The notes under the pieces: generated by a model
The model's database searches: none
Seen by the model: only the letters and a program-made list of their open reading frames with translations
What the model was told of the DNA's origin: nothing
Origin: Streptomyces humicola
Lineage (GTDB): Bacteria; Actinomycetota; Actinomycetes; Streptomycetales; Streptomycetaceae
Length of the DNA stretch: 54,861 nt
Direction: 5' to 3'
NCBI RefSeq assembly: GCF_024436035.1
Contig: NZ_JANFNG010000039.1
Span: 1-54,861, forward strand
In this document: positions 42,171 through 54,861 of the stretch, one piece after another
Layout: each line of letters opens with the position of its first letter
Position numbering within the stretch: position 1 is the first letter of the stretch
Translations under genes and position numbers: made by a program

Positions 42171-43292
42171 TCACAGCTGCGCCGAGCGTTCGGCCAGGCG
42201 CTTGGCGCCGACCGCCGTCAGCGAACCGTGCAGCCGCAGACGGGAGATGCCGCCGTCCGGGAAGATGTCGATCCGGACATGGGTTGCGGCGGGCGCGTCG
42301 ACCAGGAAGCGGTGGACGGTGTCGGGCTGCAGCCGGGTGCGCGGCAGGATCTCGAACCACTCCTCCGAGCCGGCGCTCTGGTCCTGCCCGTAGAGGGCGG
42401 CCCAGCCGGCCGAGTTGCCCTTGAGGTAGCCGGTGTCGATCTCCACGGCGCGGATCTCGGCCTGCTCGGTGAGGCGGTAGCGGACCCAGTCGTTGCCCTT
42501 GTCGCGGCGGCGACGGGTCTCCCAGCCGTCGTCCATCTTGCGCGAACGGCCCGGCAGGATGGTGTTGGTGGGCGGCGAGTAGAACCGGTCGGAGGCGTCC
42601 TCGACGGCGCCGCCGTTCTCCAGCGCGACGAGGTCGAAGGTGCCGAGCGCGGCCAGCCACTCCGGGTCGGGCGCGACATCGCCGTAGACGCGCAGCCGCG
42701 CGATGCCGCCGTCGGGGTGCTGGTTGAGGCGCAGGTGGGTGAAGCGGCGCTCGACGGCGATCTCGAAGGCGTTGGCGGCGTGGCCGCCGATGGCGGTGCG
42801 CGGGACCAGCTCGGTCCACTCCACACCGTCGGCGAGCAGTTCCTCGGGCGAGGCGGACAGCGGCGCGACGGTGGCCTCGATGGAGACGGCCTGCGGGTAG
42901 TTGCCGCGGAAGTGTGCGGTGTCCACGATGATGCCGCGGATCACGCCGGGGGCGCCGAGGCGGATGAGCGCCCAGTCGTGGTCCTCGTCGGCCGGGTGCG
43001 GGGTGCCGGCTCCGGTGCCCCTGCGACGGCGGGTCTCCCAGCCGTCCATGATCTTGCCCTTGTGGCCGAAGTGCTCGGGGTCGAAGTGAGCGGGCTCGGG
43101 GATGAGCAGGTTCTCGCGCTCGGCGAAGAACTCGTCGTTGGCGGCGACGACGCCCGCGCCGAGGCGGCGGTCGGCCAGGTCGACCAGGTCGACCAGGTCG
43201 GCGAAGGGAATCTCCGCGCTGCGGTAGTCGGCGTACGGGTCGCCGCCTCCGTACGGCTTGGCGTCGCCGGTGAAGCGAGTGACCTGCGTCAT
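42171..43292 (-). CDS. alc: Allantoicase
   Basis: A 373-residue enzyme that hydrolyses allantoate to ureidoglycolate and urea. It consists of two allantoicase (jelly-roll) repeats: each carries [14 protein letters not shown]- or [15 protein letters not shown]-type sequence followed by DWxxxRL, and [13 protein letters not shown] or [13 protein letters not shown]. Near the N-terminus a 9-bp unit repeated three times (43175-43201) encodes the run LVDLVDLAD. The ATG at 43292 overlaps the allantoinase stop (ATGA), so both are cotranslated. Its product feeds glyoxylate. Confidence 0.94.
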
Positions 43293-44641
43293 GCATGCTG
43301 CCTTTCGATGAGCCGGCCGGTGGGCCGGGTGGTGAGGCCGTGATCGGCGATGCGCTGTCCGCGCAGCCAGGTGCTGCGCACGACGCCGTGGAGCGTGCGC
43401 CCGGCGTAGGCGGTGATCCGATTGCGGTGGTGGAGCACCGCCGGGTCCACGGTGAAGGTCTCCTCGGGTGCGAGGACGGCGAAGTCGGCGTCGTTGCCCG
43501 GTGCGATGGCGCCCTTGTTGCCGAGTCCGGCCAGCGCGGCCGGTGCGGACGACATCCAGCGCACCACGTCGGTGAGTGTGTGGCCGCGGCGGCGGGCCTC
43601 GGTCCAGATCGCCGGAAGGCCCAGCTGGAGCGAGGAGATGCCGCCCCACGCCTGCCCGAAGTCGCCGGTGTCGAGGAGCTTGAGGTCGACGGTGGACGGC
43701 GAGTGGTCGGAGACGATGCAGTCGATGGTGCCGTCGGCGAGGCCTTCCCACAGGGCGTCCTGGTTTCCGGCCTCGCGGATGGGCGGGCAGCACTTGAACT
43801 CCGTTGCACCGTCCGGCACTTCCTCGGCGGTGAGGGTGAGGTAGTGCGGGCAGCTCTCGACGGTGAGCCGTACGCCGTCGCGCTTGGCGGCGGCGATCAG
43901 CGGCAGGGCGTCGGACGAGGAGAGGTGCAGGATGTGGATGCGGGCCCGCAGCCGCTGCGCGAGTGCGATCAGCGAGGCGATGGCGGTGTTCTCGGCGTCG
44001 CGCGGACGGGAGGCGAGGAAGTCGGCGTAGCGGCGGCTGCCGTCGGCGTGCGGCGCGGCCTCGATCAGGTGGGGGTCCTCGGCGTGCACGATGAGCAGGC
44101 CGTCGAAGCCGGCGATCTCGGCCATCGCCTCTTCGAGCTCGGCGGGGCTCAGGTGCGGGAACTCGTCGGCGCCCGACGGCAGCAGGAAGCACTTGAAGCC
44201 GAAGACGCCGGCGTCGTGCAGCGGCCGCAGCTCCTTGACGTTGCCGGGGATGGCGCCACCCCAGAAGCCGACGTCGATGTGGGCCTTGTCCCGGGCCGTG
44301 CTGCGCTTGATGTCGAGAGCGGTGGGAGTGGTGGTCGGCGGGATGCTGTTGAGCGGCATGTCGATCAGCGTCGTGATGCCGCCCGCCGCGGCCGCGCGGG
44401 TCGCGGAGTCGAAGCCCTCCCATTCGGTGCGGCCGGGATCGTTGACGTGGACGTGCGTGTCGACGAGGCCGGGCAGCAGCGCGTCGTCACCGAGGTCCAC
44501 GATGCGGGCGCCTGCCGGAAGCTCGGCCTCGTACGGCAGAACGGCCACGATCCGGTCATCGGCGACGGTCACCGCCGCCGGGCGCTCACCCTCAGGTGTG
44601 ACGACCCGCGTCGAGCGCAGGACGAGGTCTGCGTGCGACAC
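43289..44641 (-). CDS. allB: Allantoinase
   Basis: A 450-residue cyclic amidohydrolase that opens allantoin to allantoate. [20 protein letters not shown] supplies the first metal histidines, [18 protein letters not shown] the carboxylated Lys, [13 protein letters not shown] and [16 protein letters not shown] further ligands, and [10 protein letters not shown] the catalytic Asp. Length is family-normal. GTG 44641 is the start, with GGAGAG upstream, and its region carries a palindrome at 44673. It leads the alc-allB unit and is divergent from the IclR gene. Confidence 0.95.
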
Positions 44642-44983
44642 AGGCTCTCCTTCCTTCTTCCACCTACCGGAATTCAACTTTCTGTTGAAGGAAGTCTTCA
44701 CGCCGGAGACGTGGAGCGTCAAGGCTTCAGACGTGCGACCCGTGAGCCACTTTGGAGGATTCCACAAAATGGAATCTGCATTCCATACAATAGAAGGTAG
44801 CTACGACCAGTTGCGGTGTGGCGACAGGTAGGGCGTAAGCGTCGATCGTGTGGTCCACGGGCCCGCGGACCTCGGATCCGCAGGCAGCGGCCCGTGATCG
44901 ACCGCTCGGCGCCCGGTAGGCTGCCGTACGCTGCCGAGCCCATACCGGGCCCGGCGGCTCACGCGGCTTCGAGAGGACCGGAC
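44642..44983. promoter_or_regulatory. allB-iclR divergent control region with tandem boxes
   Basis: This 342-bp gap has four signals. A 17-bp dyad at 44673-44689 (TTCAAC, 5 nt, GTTGAA) lies 32 bp before allB. A possible leftward promoter is TTGACG at 44717-44722 (read on minus) with AAGACT 18 bp downstream. Two 15-bp boxes start exactly 21 bp apart: TTCCACAAAATGGAA (44760-44774) and TTCCATACAATAGAA (44781-44795); the latter contains TACAAT, a good -10 for the rightward iclR gene. The first 190 bp before the chosen iclR start (GTG 44984) are open in frame from GTG 44816, so an earlier iclR start is possible. Confidence 0.6.
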
Positions 44984-45808
44984 GTGCCGTCGATCAGCTC
45001 CAGCAGCTCCGCCAACAACACCAGCACCAGCAGTAAGCCCAACGGCACCGCCGCGGGCGCCGGTGGCGTGCAATCCCTGGAGCGCGCTTTCGACCTGCTG
45101 GAGCGGATGGCCGACGCGGGCGGCGAGGTCGGGCTGAGCGAGCTCTCCGCGAGCAGCGGACTTCCGCTTCCCACGATCCACCGGCTGATGCGCACGCTCG
45201 TCTCCTGCGGCTACGTACGGCAGCAGCCGAACCGCCGCTACGCGCTCGGCCCGCGCCTCATCCGGCTCGGCGAGAGCGCATCGCGGCTGCTGGGCACTTG
45301 GGCGCGGCCGTACCTCGCGGAACTGGTCGAGGCGACCGGCGAGACGGCGAACATGGCGCTGCTCGACGGCGATGAGGTCGTCTACGTGGCGCAGGTGCCG
45401 TCGCGCCACTCAATGCGGATGTTCACCGAGGTCGGACGGCGGGTGCTGCCGCACTCCACGGGCGTCGGCAAGGCGCTGCTCGCGCACGTCCCGGCCGACG
45501 AGGTGCGGGCGCTGCTGGGGCGTACGGGCATGCCCGCGGCGACCGAGAAGACGATCACCGACCCGGAGGAGTTCATCGCCGAGCTGGAGCGCATCCGCAC
45601 GGCGGGCTACGCGGTCGACGACAACGAGCAGGAGATAGGGGTGCGCTGCCTGGCGGTGACCGTGCCCGATTCCCCGACGGCCGCGGCGATCTCCATCTCG
45701 GGCCCGGCGGGACGCGTCACGGAGACGGCACAGGACAAGATCATCCCCGTGCTGCAGGACGTCGCACGCCAGCTCTCCGCTGCGCTCGCCAGCACGGGAA
45801 CCGCCTGA
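44984..45808 (+). CDS. allR: IclR-family regulator of allantoin genes (AllR-like)
   Basis: A 274-residue repressor-type protein. A Ser/Asn/Thr-rich N-terminus leads to the winged helix (GVQSLERAFDLLERMADAGG, LSELSASSGLPLPTIHRLMR) and the IclR effector domain (GETANMALLDGDEVVYVAQV, LPHSTGVGKALLAHVPADEV, IGVRCLAVTVPDSPTAAAIS). IclR proteins of this type sense glyoxylate or allantoin-pathway compounds. Its position beside allB and the repeated boxes at both allB and malate synthase promoters support that role. The GTG at 44984 follows GAGAGG; the start is not certain. Confidence 0.88.
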   Translation: MPSISSSSSANNTSTSSKPNGTAAGAGGVQSLERAFDLLERMADAGGEVGLSELSASSGLPLPTIHRLMRTLVSCGYVRQQPNRRYALGPRLIRLGESASRLLGTWARPYLAELVEATGETANMALLDGDEVVYVAQVPSRHSMRMFTEVGRRVLPHSTGVGKALLAHVPADEVRALLGRTGMPAATEKTITDPEEFIAELERIRTAGYAVDDNEQEIGVRCLAVTVPDSPTAAAISISGPAGRVTETAQDKIIPVLQDVARQLSAALASTGTA

Positions 45809-45810
45809 CC

Positions 45811-46206
45811 TCAGGTGGGGTCGCCGGCCGCCTCGCGGCGTGGTCGTGCCGCCGGAACGGGGCCGAAGAGGTCGATCGCGCCGCGCACCTCCGCCAGGGA
45901 CGGTGCGAGCGCGCTCACCGAGCCCAGGGCGCTGGTGAGCACCAGCAGCGAGCCGCGGAGGCGTTCGATCACCGGGACGCCCGCCGCGGCGGCTGCGTCG
46001 AGCGCCGCGAGTTCGTCCTCGGCGACCTCACGGTCGGACAGATGGGCGCGGTAGCCCGCGAGCTCGCGGCGGAGGCGGGCGACCGCCTTGCGCAGACCCG
46101 TCACCCGCGGGTCCTCGGTACCGTCCGCCGCGCCGTCGGCTGTGCCATCCGCGCCGTCGGCGCGTACGACGGTCCGGGCACACTGCCCGGTCGGGTCGTT
46201 CGACAC
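45811..46206 (-). CDS. Small conserved actinobacterial protein (DUF5955-like)
   Basis: A 131-residue protein starting at GTG 46206 with GGGGGAG upstream. An acidic, repetitive stretch (GADGTADGAADGTED) precedes two helices, VTGLRKAVARLRRELAGYRA (predicted coiled coil) and LAALDAAAAAGVPVIERLRG, then a hydrophobic LLVLTSALGSVSALAPSLAE helix. The layout resembles streptomycete DUF5955 proteins. No function is known. It is convergent with allR and divergent from the MobA-like gene. Confidence 0.6.
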   Translation of the reverse strand: MSNDPTGQCARTVVRADGADGTADGAADGTEDPRVTGLRKAVARLRRELAGYRAHLSDREVAEDELAALDAAAAAGVPVIERLRGSLLVLTSALGSVSALAPSLAEVRGAIDLFGPVPAARPRREAAGDPT

Positions 46207-46265
46207 TGCTACTCCCCCTCAGACGTCCTGGGGTAGGCCATGCTGGGCCGGACCAGTAAAGGCGA

Positions 46266-46326
46266 CTCTCCGCACATCGCGCCATACGGAGAGCGAAATC
46301 GGTCTCAAAAAACCTTCGTTCGAAGG
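46266..46326. promoter_or_regulatory. Two inverted repeats upstream of the MobA-like gene
   Basis: CTCTCCG (46266-46272) and CGGAGAG (46287-46293) form one dyad. CCTTCG (46313-46318), TT, CGAAGG (46321-46326) forms a second compact palindrome. Both lie in the intergenic region before the ATG at 46405. Binding proteins are unknown. Confidence 0.45.
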
Positions 46327-46404
46327 AGACTTGGCGGTATTTCACACGTCCGTGTGGCAAGCCGCCGCTTTCCTCGCAAGCCGGAAAGGGGATATGCAGG
46401 CGTC

Positions 46405-47061
46405 ATGAAGCAGTTTGTAGCGGGTGTGGTGCTCGCGGCCGGTACCGGACGGCGGCTGGGCGGGCAGCCCAAGGCGCTCCTCACCTACCGCGGGGGGCTG
46501 CTCGTCGAGCATGCCGCCCGCGTGCTGCGCGACGGGGGCTGCGACGTGGTGCATGTCGTGCTCGGTGCGGCCGCCGCGGAGGTACGGGAGCGGGCCACCG
46601 GGCTCGACTGGTGCCGGCTGGTCGACAACCCCGACTGGGCGCAGGGGATGGGATCCTCGCTGCGCGTCGGGCTCGCCTCGCTCCGCTCCACGGACGCGCG
46701 GGCGGCGGTGGTCTCCCTCGTCGACCAGCCCGGAATCGGCCCCGAGGCCGTCGCACGCCTGCTGTCGTCCGGCGTCTCGCGGGCGAGCCTCGCCGCCGCC
46801 GCATACGACGGCAGCCGCGGCCATCCCGTGCTCTTCGGCGCCGATCACTGGCCCGCCGTCATTTCCTCGGCCAAAGGCGATCAAGGCGCTCGCGCATATC
46901 TGCGGGGGCGTGAGAGCACAATCACATTGGTCGAATGCGGGGACATTTCCTCGCCCGGCGACATCGACACCCCCGCCGACCTGCGACTCCTCTCCGAGCC
47001 TGGCGGCCGGGCCGCCGAGAGGCCCCGCGAAGGCCGTGCACCGGGTGCCACAAACCGTTGA
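46405..47061 (+). CDS. MobA-like NTP transferase (molybdenum cofactor nucleotidyltransferase family)
   Basis: A 218-residue nucleotidyltransferase. [20 protein letters not shown] is the nucleotide-binding signature, [17 protein letters not shown] the metal-binding region, and [19 protein letters not shown] the closing motif. The group includes MocA/MobA and the enzyme that finishes molybdopterin cytosine dinucleotide for xanthine-dehydrogenase-type enzymes, which fits purine oxidation upstream of urate, although no xdh genes lie in the window. A FAD- or sugar-nucleotide use cannot be excluded. Its stop codon overlaps the -35 of the malate synthase promoter. Confidence 0.85.
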
Positions 47062-47099
47062 TCTTCCACTATGCAGAAACTATGCTCCACGCAGCAGAA
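47058..47099 (+). promoter_or_regulatory. Malate synthase promoter with two AllR-like boxes
   Basis: TTGATC (47058-47063) and TATGCT (47081-47086), 17 bp apart, form a good vegetative-type promoter. TTCCACTATGCAGAA (47064-47078) fills the spacer and CTCCACGCAGCAGAA (47085-47099) overlaps the -10 and start site. The two boxes begin 21 bp apart, exactly as at the allB/iclR region. A repressor at these sites would block transcription. Confidence 0.62.
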
Positions 47100-47216
47100 C
47101 GCTCGGGCCCGGCCGCACACCGGCCCGGGATCTGCCGCCGTACCCACAATCCGCGGCACCCCGTGCCGCCATCGCGCCGCCGCCGCACACGGCGCGCGCG
47201 TGAAGGAGTGACAGCC

Positions 47217-48833
47217 ATGTCCGCAGCAGCGCCCTCCCCGCTGCCCGTCATCGTCGACGCAGAGCCCGTCCCACGTTCCGAGGAGGTGCTCACCGATGAG
47301 GCGCTCGCCTTCATCGGAGAGCTGCATCGCCGGTTCGCACCGCGCCGCGCCGAACTGCTCGCCCAGCGCAAGGAGCGCCGAGACGAGATCGCACGAACCG
47401 CCGCACTGGACTTCCGCCCCGAGACCGCGCACGTCCGCGAGGGCGACTGGCAGGTCGCCCGGGCCCCGGAGGTGCTGAACGACCGGCGTGTGGAGATCAC
47501 CGGTCCGACCGACCGCAAGATGACCATCAACGCGCTGAACTCCGGCGCCAAGGTATGGCTCGCCGACTTCGAGGACGCCTCCGCGCCCACATGGGAGAAC
47601 GTGGTCCTCGGCCAGGTCAACCTGATCGACGCCTACGAGCGCCGCATCGACTTCACCTCCCCCGAGGGCAAGTCCTACGCGCTGCGCCCGGATGCGGAAC
47701 TCGCCACCGTCGTGATGCGCCCGCGCGGCTGGCACCTGGACGAGCGGCACCTGACCGTCGACGGCGAACCGGTGCCGGGCGCCTTCGTCGACTTCGGCCT
47801 GTATTTCTTCCACAACGCCAAGCGGTTGCTGGCCAAGGGCAAGGGCCCGTACTTCTACCTGCCGAAGACGGAGTCGTACCTCGAGGCGCGCCTGTGGAAC
47901 GACGTCTTCGTCTTCGCCCAGGACTACACCGGCATTCCGCAGGGCACCATCCGTGCCACCGTCCTCATCGAGACGATCACCGCCGCGTTCGAGATGGAGG
48001 AGATCCTCTACGAACTGCGCGACCACGCCAGCGGTCTGAACGCCGGCCGCTGGGACTATCTCTTCTCGATCGTGAAGAACTTCCGCGACGGTGGTGAGAA
48101 GTTCGTCCTGCCGGACCGCAACGCGGTGACCATGACGGCGCCGTTCATGCGCGCGTACACCGAACTGCTCGTCCGCACCTGCCACAAGCGCGGCGCCCAC
48201 GCCATCGGCGGCATGGCCGCGTTCATCCCCTCGCGCCGCGACCCCGAGGTCAACGCCAAGGCGCTGGAGAAGGTCAGGGCCGACAAGGACCGCGAGGCCG
48301 CGGACGGTTTCGACGGCTCCTGGGTCGCCCACCCCGACCTGGTCCCGGTCGCCCGCGCCAGCTTCGACGCGGTGCTCGGCGACAAGCCGAACCAGAAGGA
48401 CCGGCTGCGCGAGGACGTGCACGTCACCGCCGACCAGCTGATCGCCATCGATTCGCTCGACGCCAAACCGACGTACGAGGGGTTGCGCAACGCCGTCCAG
48501 GTCGGCATCCGCTACATCGAGGCCTGGCTGCGGGGCCTCGGCGCCGTTGCCATCTTCAACCTCATGGAGGACGCGGCCACCGCCGAGATCTCGCGCTCGC
48601 AGATCTGGCAGTGGATCGACGCCGGCGTCGTCTTCGACAACGGCGAGAAGGCCACCGCCGAGCTGGCCCGCCACATCGCCGCCGAGGAACTGGCGGCGAT
48701 CCGCGCGGAGATCGGCGAGGAGGCCTTCGCGGCCGGCACCTGGCAGCAGGCGCACGACCTGCTGCTCCAGGTCTCGCTCGACGAGAAGTACGTGGACTTC
48801 CTCACCCTGCCCGCGTACGAGTTGCTCGGCTGA
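47217..48833 (+). CDS. aceB: Malate synthase A
   Basis: A 538-residue enzyme that condenses glyoxylate with acetyl-CoA to malate. [69 protein letters not shown] and FPALL-type [13 protein letters not shown] are class A signatures with the catalytic Arg and metal-binding Glu in place; [17 protein letters not shown] follows. In streptomycetes this isoform removes glyoxylate from allantoin, so its position behind allR and the shared boxes fit. Start ATG 47217 follows GAAGGAG. It ends at a strong terminator. Confidence 0.96.
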
Positions 48834-53975: not shown

Positions 53976-54014
53976 CTAAAGGCCCGCGCCACACGTCGTC
54001 AACACTTTGTTGAA
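53976..54014 (-). promoter_or_regulatory. uraD promoter overlapped by a 17-bp dyad
   Basis: Read on the minus strand, TTCAACAAAGTGTTGAC (53998-54014 on plus) forms a dyad whose right arm contains a -35 TTGACG. After 18 bp, TAGCTT is the -10. The same arrangement, same 18-bp spacing and same dyad occur at 54764-54805 in the opposite direction. Repressor binding on the dyad would block the -35. Confidence 0.62.
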
Positions 54015-54097: not shown

Positions 54098-54475
54098 TCA
54101 CGCATTGTTCTTGGCAGCACCTTCACGGTTGAGGTAGTTGTACACCGTGAAACGGCTGACGCCGAGCGCGGAGGCGACCGTCTCGACGCCGTGGCGCACC
54201 GAGAAGGCGCCGCGCTCCTCGAGGATCCGCACCACCGTCTGCTTCTCCTTGCGGTCCAGCTCGGCGAGGGGCCGGCCCTTGCGCCGCTCCAGGTCGGCGA
54301 GGATGTGGTCGAGGGAGTCGGCTATGTGCGGCAGCCGTACGGCCAGCACCTCCTCGCCCTCCCAGCTGAGCACGACGTCATCGCCGCGCGCCTGATCGGG
54401 GGGGACCATGACCCCGCCCATGGCGTCGACGAGCGGTTTGACCGCGTCGACGAAGGGGTGACCGGTGCTCGTCAC
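54098..54475 (-). CDS. Helix-turn-helix protein (HTH_22/YheO-like C-terminal domain)
   Basis: A 125-residue protein starting at GTG 54475. The N-terminal half (VDAVKPLVDAMGGVMVPPDQ onward, EEVLAVRLPHIADSLDHILA) is unassigned; residues about 75-118 (LDRKEKQTVVRILEERGAFS, ALGVSRFTVYNYLNRE) are an HTH of the YheO/DauR C-terminal type. It overlaps the upstream small gene stop by 4 bp (GTGA) and sits between the two mirrored operators of the urate region, so it is a candidate regulator of them; this is inference. Confidence 0.7.
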   Translation of the reverse strand: MTSTGHPFVDAVKPLVDAMGGVMVPPDQARGDDVVLSWEGEEVLAVRLPHIADSLDHILADLERRKGRPLAELDRKEKQTVVRILEERGAFSVRHGVETVASALGVSRFTVYNYLNREGAAKNNA

Positions 54476-54763: not shown

Positions 54764-54805
54764 TTCAACAAAGTGTTGACATCGCTCGCGCGAGGTCCTT
54801 AGTGT
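54764..54805 (+). promoter_or_regulatory. Rightward promoter with dyad operator at the window end
   Basis: TTCAAC (54764-54769), AAAGT, GTTGAC (54775-54780) is a 17-bp dyad whose right arm contains -35 TTGACA (54776-54781); TAGTGT (54800-54805) lies 18 bp downstream as -10. A direct repeat ATACGGAA with TCGC tail follows at 54811-54824 and 54836-54849; the second copy covers the ribosome site before ATG 54851. Start of transcription is predicted near 54812. Confidence 0.6.
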
Positions 54806-54850
54806 CCGCGATACGGAACTTCGCTTTCACCTCCCATACGGAAGGTCGCA

Positions 54851-54861
54851 ATGCCCAAGCA
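54851..54861 (+). CDS. Start of a truncated rightward gene (possibly glyoxylate carboligase)
   Basis: ATG 54851 with GGAAGG (54841-54845 area) upstream begins a frame reading M-P-K before the window ends. Family cannot be read from three residues. By context (urate and ureide genes, glyoxylate-consuming steps, a small thiamine-binding-like protein next door) glyoxylate carboligase is a reasonable guess, not more. Confidence 0.35.

Follow-up and report, generated by a model that had tools for sequence, protein, structure and literature searches.

Paired 15-bp boxes at the allR and aceB promoters of Streptomyces humicola as predicted operators of the IclR-family regulator AllR, and a second conserved palindrome beside them

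The window, i.e., the whole stretch of DNA that was analysed, comprises 54,861 nucleotides and is an entire contig (C32) of the 7.07-Mb genome of Streptomyces humicola. It codes for an allantoinase, a divergently transcribed IclR-family regulator and a malate synthase, and pairs of 15-bp boxes and a 17-bp palindrome lie in the DNA upstream of these genes:

43289–44641, minus strand: allB, allantoinase, GTG start (NCBIfam TIGR03178, 608 bits, cut-off 358)
44658–44672, no strand: single AllR-like box, TTCCACCTACCGGAA, which adjoins the palindrome and ends 17 bp upstream of the allB start codon
44673–44689, no strand: second palindrome, TTCAACTTTCTGTTGAA, directly downstream of the likely allB -10
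44693–44722, minus strand: likely allB promoter, TTGACG (44722–44717), 18 bp, AAGACT (44698–44693)
44752–44781, plus strand: likely allR promoter, TTGGAG (44752–44757), 18 bp holding box A, weak -10 CTGCAT (44776–44781)
44760–44774, plus strand: predicted AllR box A of the allR/allB intergenic pair, TTCCACAAAATGGAA, a palindrome with perfect 5-bp arms; conserved
44781–44795, plus strand: predicted AllR box B of the same pair, TTCCATACAATAGAA, 21 bp from box A; conserved
44984–45808, plus strand: allR, IclR-family regulator, GTG start (Pfam HTH_IclR and IclR_C)
47046–47062, no strand: degenerate copy of the palindrome (3/12 mismatches), overlapping the aceB -35 and 1 bp before box A
47058–47086, plus strand: likely aceB promoter, TTGATC (47058–47063), 17 bp, TATGCT (47081–47086); missed by a sigma-70 consensus scan
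47064–47078, plus strand: predicted AllR box A of aceB, TTCCACTATGCAGAA, within the -35/-10 spacer
47085–47099, plus strand: predicted AllR box B of aceB, CTCCACGCAGCAGAA, covering the likely start and the end of the -10
47217–48833, plus strand: aceB, malate synthase (NCBIfam TIGR01344, 840 bits, cut-off 594.5)

The boxes are of the type TTCCR-N5-YRGAA. The allR/allB pair (44760–44795) reads TTCCACAAAATGGAA-tctgca-TTCCATACAATAGAA and the pair upstream of aceB (47064–47099) reads TTCCACTATGCAGAA-actatg-CTCCACGCAGCAGAA, with a start-to-start distance of exactly 21 bp in both. The first-pass annotation of this DNA had placed all four 15-mers and their spacing correctly; the common pattern that it drew from them, TCCA-x7-x-GAA, is real and one position too long, the true form being TCCA-N7-GAA. 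When each box is scored over 10 positions and a total of at least 17 with at least 8 per box is required at spacings of 15–44 bp, exactly two pairs pass in the window, both at a spacing of 21. Sixty dinucleotide shuffles of the window gave 11 pairs across all 30 spacings combined, not one of them at 21 bp. Single boxes are common, 56 of them scoring at least 8 on the plus strand of the window, and hence only their pairing is informative.

Searching the genome for exact instances of TTCC-N8-GAA-N(0-25)-NTCC-N8-GAA, with the spacer left free, recovered five matches as compared to none for a reversed-pattern control. Three of these are spaced at exactly 21 bp, namely those at 44760, at 47064 and upstream of hyi (contig C23:2007–2042), and the other two have starts 33 and 38 bp apart; this search, which the first-pass annotation had suggested as a check, finds exact 21-bp matches at allR, aceB and hyi only. 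With the spacing fixed at 21 bp and two mismatches allowed there are 14 forward and 10 reverse matches, versus 2 and 5 in the control, and many of them look like background.

The nearest relatives of AllR are found in Streptomyces and Actinacidiphila, and we compared 80 AllR-bearing loci, 78 with allB and 66 with a readable aceB upstream region. A spacing of 21 bp is the best or tied-best in 72/78 allB upstream regions, three of which have to be discounted (the scores of L009 and L066 reach just 15; L066 and L068 match in allR coding DNA), and in 63/66 aceB upstream regions, the exceptions (L052, L066 and L069) having a broken box B. A cleaner count, limited to intergenic 21-bp pairs scoring at least 17, finds them in 70/78 allB/allR regions, with the misses either matched solely inside allR coding DNA (L024, L051, L066 and L068) or scoring under 17 (L009, L013, L017 and L019). 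L009 and L024 code for an AllR 91–92% identical to that of the window and display single boxes without a clear intergenic pair, which counts against strict universality. In the alignments of the relatives' allR and aceB regions the boxes are kept while much of the flanking DNA drifts, and their conservation upstream of the aceB and allB orthologues (63/66 and 70/78, respectively) bears out this part of the original proposal.

At aceB, box A occupies the spacer between TTGATC and TATGCT and box B spans the likely start as well as the end of the -10, just as first described. The promoter of the relatives is mostly TTGAAC-N17-TA(G/C)TAT, and the aceB-sense consensus of 63 sequences is ATTGAAC-TTCCACcATGAGGAA-ACTAxT-ATCCACTGttCAGAA. 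The allR-sense consensus, from 75 distinct sequences including the window, is cTGGAcGT-TTCCACaAAGtGgAA-ttagaa-[TTcCg..aagcaGAA], and many relatives have TAGAAT where the window has the weak -10 CTGCAT. Both share a common layout, with box A filling the spacer directly after a -35-like element, the -10 at the linker and box B over the likely start. A sigma-70 consensus scan of 44600–47250 found no promoter; hence, the promoters were called from conservation and by inspection.

Since this aceB-like geometry is relative to allR and not to allB, we take the 44760 pair to be, most directly, an operator for autoregulation on the promoter of allR itself. Its original assignment to the allB promoter does not fit this geometry: the likely allB promoter is separate and has its -35 at a distance of 73 bp from the pair, and TTGAC is found 16–59 bp upstream of the allB palindrome in 79/79 sequences, window included. 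The pair may also act on allB, because changes in its distance from the allB -35 lean to steps of ~11 bp. The 17 inferred changes of at least 4 bp tend towards multiples of ~11 bp, with 22/5000 jittered sets being as periodic, in a cleaned test of 71 sequences (8 of the 79 dropped) that is limited by shared ancestry and the scanned period. We give somewhat under even odds to the narrower alternative, namely that the pair controls allR alone and that control of allB lies entirely with the palindrome and single box next to it. The match of the pair to the allR promoter, its 73-bp separation from the allB -35 and the palindrome-to-pair distance, which is not significantly phased after cleaning (397/5000 jittered sets as periodic), speak for this alternative, whereas the ~11-bp steps (22/5000) suggest contact on the same DNA face, an argument itself weakened by shared ancestry and the scanned period. 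Stronger phasing was seen in a set of 75 sequences that left out L009, L024, L051 and L066 and still held L068 and weak pairs (pair to -35, 0/5000; pair to palindrome, p 0.01); after cleaning, the pair-to-palindrome phasing was dropped and the pair-to--35 phasing kept, more weakly.

The protein encoded between the two pairs belongs to the IclR family, with matches to HTH_IclR (65.0 bits, cut-off 22) and IclR_C (150.9 bits, cut-off 24). Against more specific models it scores below the cut-offs: 206.4 bits for BhcR (NF045644, cut-off 350), its best NCBIfam model, 166.2 bits for E. coli-type IclR (NF008601, cut-off 380) and 123.9 bits for E. coli-type AllR (NF007548, cut-off 406). Adjacency to and divergence from allB, which we chose in this analysis as the feature of a Streptomyces AllR, is seen in the window and in 78/80 loci; the other two (L016 and L083) have no allB match and their AllR starts less than 200 bp from the contig end. 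The glyoxylate pocket of IclR, as given in PMC11323563 (Table 1; IclR numbering), comprises Gly160, Ala161, Asp212, Ser239 and Ser241. By an alignment read by eye AllR keeps four of these five oxygen-binding residues and has Val at position 161, where BhcR has Ile.

The distribution of the pairs likewise points to AllR. In a sample of 61 genomes of the host's family, with E <= 1e-60 taken as an AllR match, the pair pattern (up to one mismatch) is present in 47/54 genomes with an AllR match as compared to 2/7 without one (Fisher p 0.002), leaving 7/54 AllR-bearing genomes without a pair. The sample contains 166 strand-wise pair matches versus 6 for the reversed control, near-symmetric sites being counted on both strands. 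The half-sites of the boxes, TTCC/GGAA, resemble the E. coli IclR/AllR half-sites TGGAA...TTCCA in PMC8222616, which also describes tandem palindromes of the IclR family with centres 18–22 nt apart, read as tetramer sites. The spacing of 21 bp upstream of the targets, at both loci and in most relatives, lies within this range and fits the reported tandem spacing. The genome has 12 further matches to AllR, indicating that other IclR-type proteins exist in it, which counts against the assignment. On balance, we propose, with a probability of roughly 0.83, that the paired boxes are operators of AllR, acting as an IclR-family repressor with two dimers on one DNA face. The original idea of one IclR protein for both genes is partly supported: the single regulon, the IclR-type half-sites, the aceB geometry, the conservation and the family-like spacing favour it, while allR takes the place of allB as the most direct target of the 44760 pair and the regulon is widened.

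AllR control of Streptomyces allantoin genes is already published. By its title, listed among the references of PMC12772271, Navone et al. 2015 (Appl Environ Microbiol 81:6649) has AllR controlling the allantoin pathway genes of S. coelicolor. AllR is reported to bind the promoters of these genes, with allantoate and glyoxylate as effectors and hyi in the regulon. Our literature search, outside which that paper fell, returned no paper giving a Streptomyces AllR motif. The box pairs are thus a fresh example of a described kind of operator, ordinary in kind and useful in detail.

The predicted regulon is wider than first proposed, adding hyi, gcl and a tartronate-semialdehyde reductase gene. In the S. 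humicola genome the 21-bp site is exact at hyi and has one mismatch each at gcl and the reductase gene; the best model for the hyi protein is hydroxypyruvate isomerase (317 bits, under the cut-off of 353). Sites upstream of gcl, the reductase gene, an ammonium transporter and an AH_C-family gene are among the two-mismatch matches. A search for gcl in 30 genomes gave six with a match at E <= 1e-250, four of which, that of S. humicola included, have a 21-bp pair directly downstream of the -10 of a TTGACG-N17 promoter-like element; the gcl genes of L225 and L226 are without it. Seven further gcl loci of the host's family have two boxes at a spacing of 21 bp, a strong one and a weak one. The AH_C gene (PF21986, allophanate-hydrolase C-terminal family) is matched in 65/297 genomes and lies directly downstream of aceB in 26 of the 27 loci drawn from these (L159–L185).

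Three further sites were observed in this genome. On contig C41 (33180–33215; L098) the AH_C gene is stand-alone, and both an aceB-like promoter and a pair accompany it. On contig C33 (179451–179486; L097) the promoter of a second ammonium transporter, TTGACG-N17-TAACGT, carries a strong 21-bp AllR-like pair scoring 18/20. As a conserved feature of the regulon this site was rejected, with 0/7 orthologues (69–71% identity) having a pair within 400 bp upstream, and it may at most be lineage-specific. Finally, the contig end within the window (54804–54861) holds an AllR-like box (54804–54818) and a possible gene start at 54851; the gene at the equivalent place in L010 is hyi with a full 21-bp pair.

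A second motif, the palindrome TTCAAC-N5-GTTGAA, recurs beside these boxes. It is matched with up to two mismatches in 78/78 of the relatives' allB upstream regions, and in the window the single box at 44658–44672 together with the overlapping palindrome also scores as a two-mismatch pair. The degenerate aceB copy is found with at most 3/12 mismatches at exactly this place in 66/67 regions, window included, and the same 67 regions contain no form of the palindrome (up to three mismatches) more than 8 bp away from it. Copies with one mismatch at 53998–54014 and 54764–54780, beside the uricase operon, flank an HTH_22 gene (54098–54475) and a small thiamine-binding-like gene. The window has five matches in all versus 0.24 expected, the two beyond the allB and uricase copies having two mismatches. 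In the two relatives examined for this, L010 and L066, a copy stands upstream of an OHCU decarboxylase gene and continues into a -35-like TTGAC.

When up to two mismatches are allowed, the palindrome is frequent in the S. humicola genome (196 per strand versus 100 for the control), and hence a copy is informative only if it is strict or conserved. A search of 61 genomes for the strict form, TTCAACANNNCGTTGAA, gave 33 places in 26 of them. Of the 30 places with a locus, allB matches account for 17, DUF6986-like genes for 9, gcl for 3 and an aceB/allR-like pair for 1; Pfam assigned one of the nine DUF6986-like genes (L186), and the other eight were identified by eye from the gene start. Within the 61-genome sample the strict form is found in 26/54 genomes with an AllR match as compared to 0/7 without (Fisher p 0.017). 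At the DUF6986-like genes the palindrome lies ~3 bp past a TTGAC-N17/18-TA(G/A)C(T/G)T-like promoter. The loci with the palindrome at the start of such an HpcH/HpaI-like gene are L186 (S. humicola contig C12:111513), L192, L193, L194 and L196, and further L197, L198, L208 and L218.

It is about an even bet that the allantoin-to-glyoxylate promoters of these actinomycetes carry two operators for two regulators, the AllR pair and the 17-bp palindrome, with the second regulator joining uricase, allantoinase, malate synthase and the uncharacterised enzyme DUF6986 in a single purine/glyoxylate regulon. That regulator is perhaps a TetR-like protein or the HTH_22 protein encoded at 54098–54475. A TetR-like protein of Saccharopolyspora binds TTCAACATGCGTTGAA-like sites (PMC6346578), a likeness that is only a lead to the binder of the palindrome. 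By joining DUF6986 with purine and glyoxylate genes, a second regulator suggests a role for DUF6986 near glyoxylate or purine metabolism, in which it would probably act; our literature search found no paper naming DUF6986. The second palindrome may be the part of these findings that is new.

A different division of labour, in which AllR recognises TTCAAC-N5-GTTGAA and a different IclR-type protein uses the TTCC boxes, or in which AllR binds both motifs, strikes us as improbable. The palindrome's presence in all 78 allB regions and, in weaker form, in 66/67 aceB regions, together with the bias of its strict form towards AllR-bearing genomes (p 0.017), would be in keeping with it. However, TTCC/GGAA half-sites are of the IclR/AllR type and those of the palindrome are not, and it is a TetR-like protein that binds TTCAACATGCGTTGAA-like sites (PMC6346578); moreover, the box pair sits on the promoter of allR itself. 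That chance, or inherited promoter DNA without regulatory function, explains the boxes can practically be dismissed: single boxes are indeed frequent by chance, but the shuffles gave no pair at 21 bp, the boxes outlast much of their flanks, the same pair recurs at the unlinked hyi, gcl and reductase genes, and the genome search, the consensus and the 70/78 conservation all contradict it.

Returning to AllR as the predicted ligand of the pairs, the analysis shows the sequence, spacing, conservation, promoter-like geometry, regulon genes and co-occurrence with AllR, and we infer the binding of AllR, its oligomeric state, repression and effector response. Each 15-bp box would bind one AllR dimer, and the distance of 21 bp, or two helical turns, would set two dimers on one DNA face as a tetramer or a cooperating pair. 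On the aceB and allR promoters, AllR occupying box A in the spacer and box B at the start would block RNA polymerase; at gcl the pair lies directly downstream of the -10. We posit that allantoin breakdown raises allantoate or glyoxylate and thereby releases AllR, resulting in the joint production of allantoinase, malate synthase, glyoxylate carboligase, hydroxypyruvate isomerase, tartronate-semialdehyde reductase and AllR itself.

This amounts to a testable operator code for AllR, with two boxes 21 bp apart in 36 bp, which can be scanned for across actinomycete genomes, and it indicates the regulator's own promoter as a target. The stand-alone AH_C gene and the ammonium transporter emerge as candidate regulon members in this strain. 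The second palindrome suggests an additional regulator for purine breakdown and offers DUF6986 a functional context.

As in the AllR regulon of S. coelicolor, judging by the title of that work, AllR here would preside over allantoin pathway genes. As in the tandem operators of the IclR family, palindrome centres are set 18–22 nt apart (PMC8222616). In contrast to the E. coli site TGGAA-N5-TTCCA, the repeated 15-bp unit has the everted order TTCC...GGAA, and the inner halves are 6 bp apart and not 5. In PMC11323563, BhcR of Paracoccus denitrificans is a glyoxylate-responsive IclR-type regulator of glyoxylate assimilation; it serves the beta-hydroxyaspartate cycle, and the AllR of the window falls below the BhcR cut-off. 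The same source describes E. coli IclR (aceBAK) and AllR (gcl, allS-allA), which, like the system predicted here, place an IclR-type glyoxylate-sensing repressor over malate synthase or allantoin/glyoxylate genes. While E. coli splits this work between two proteins, in S. humicola one apparently covers both.
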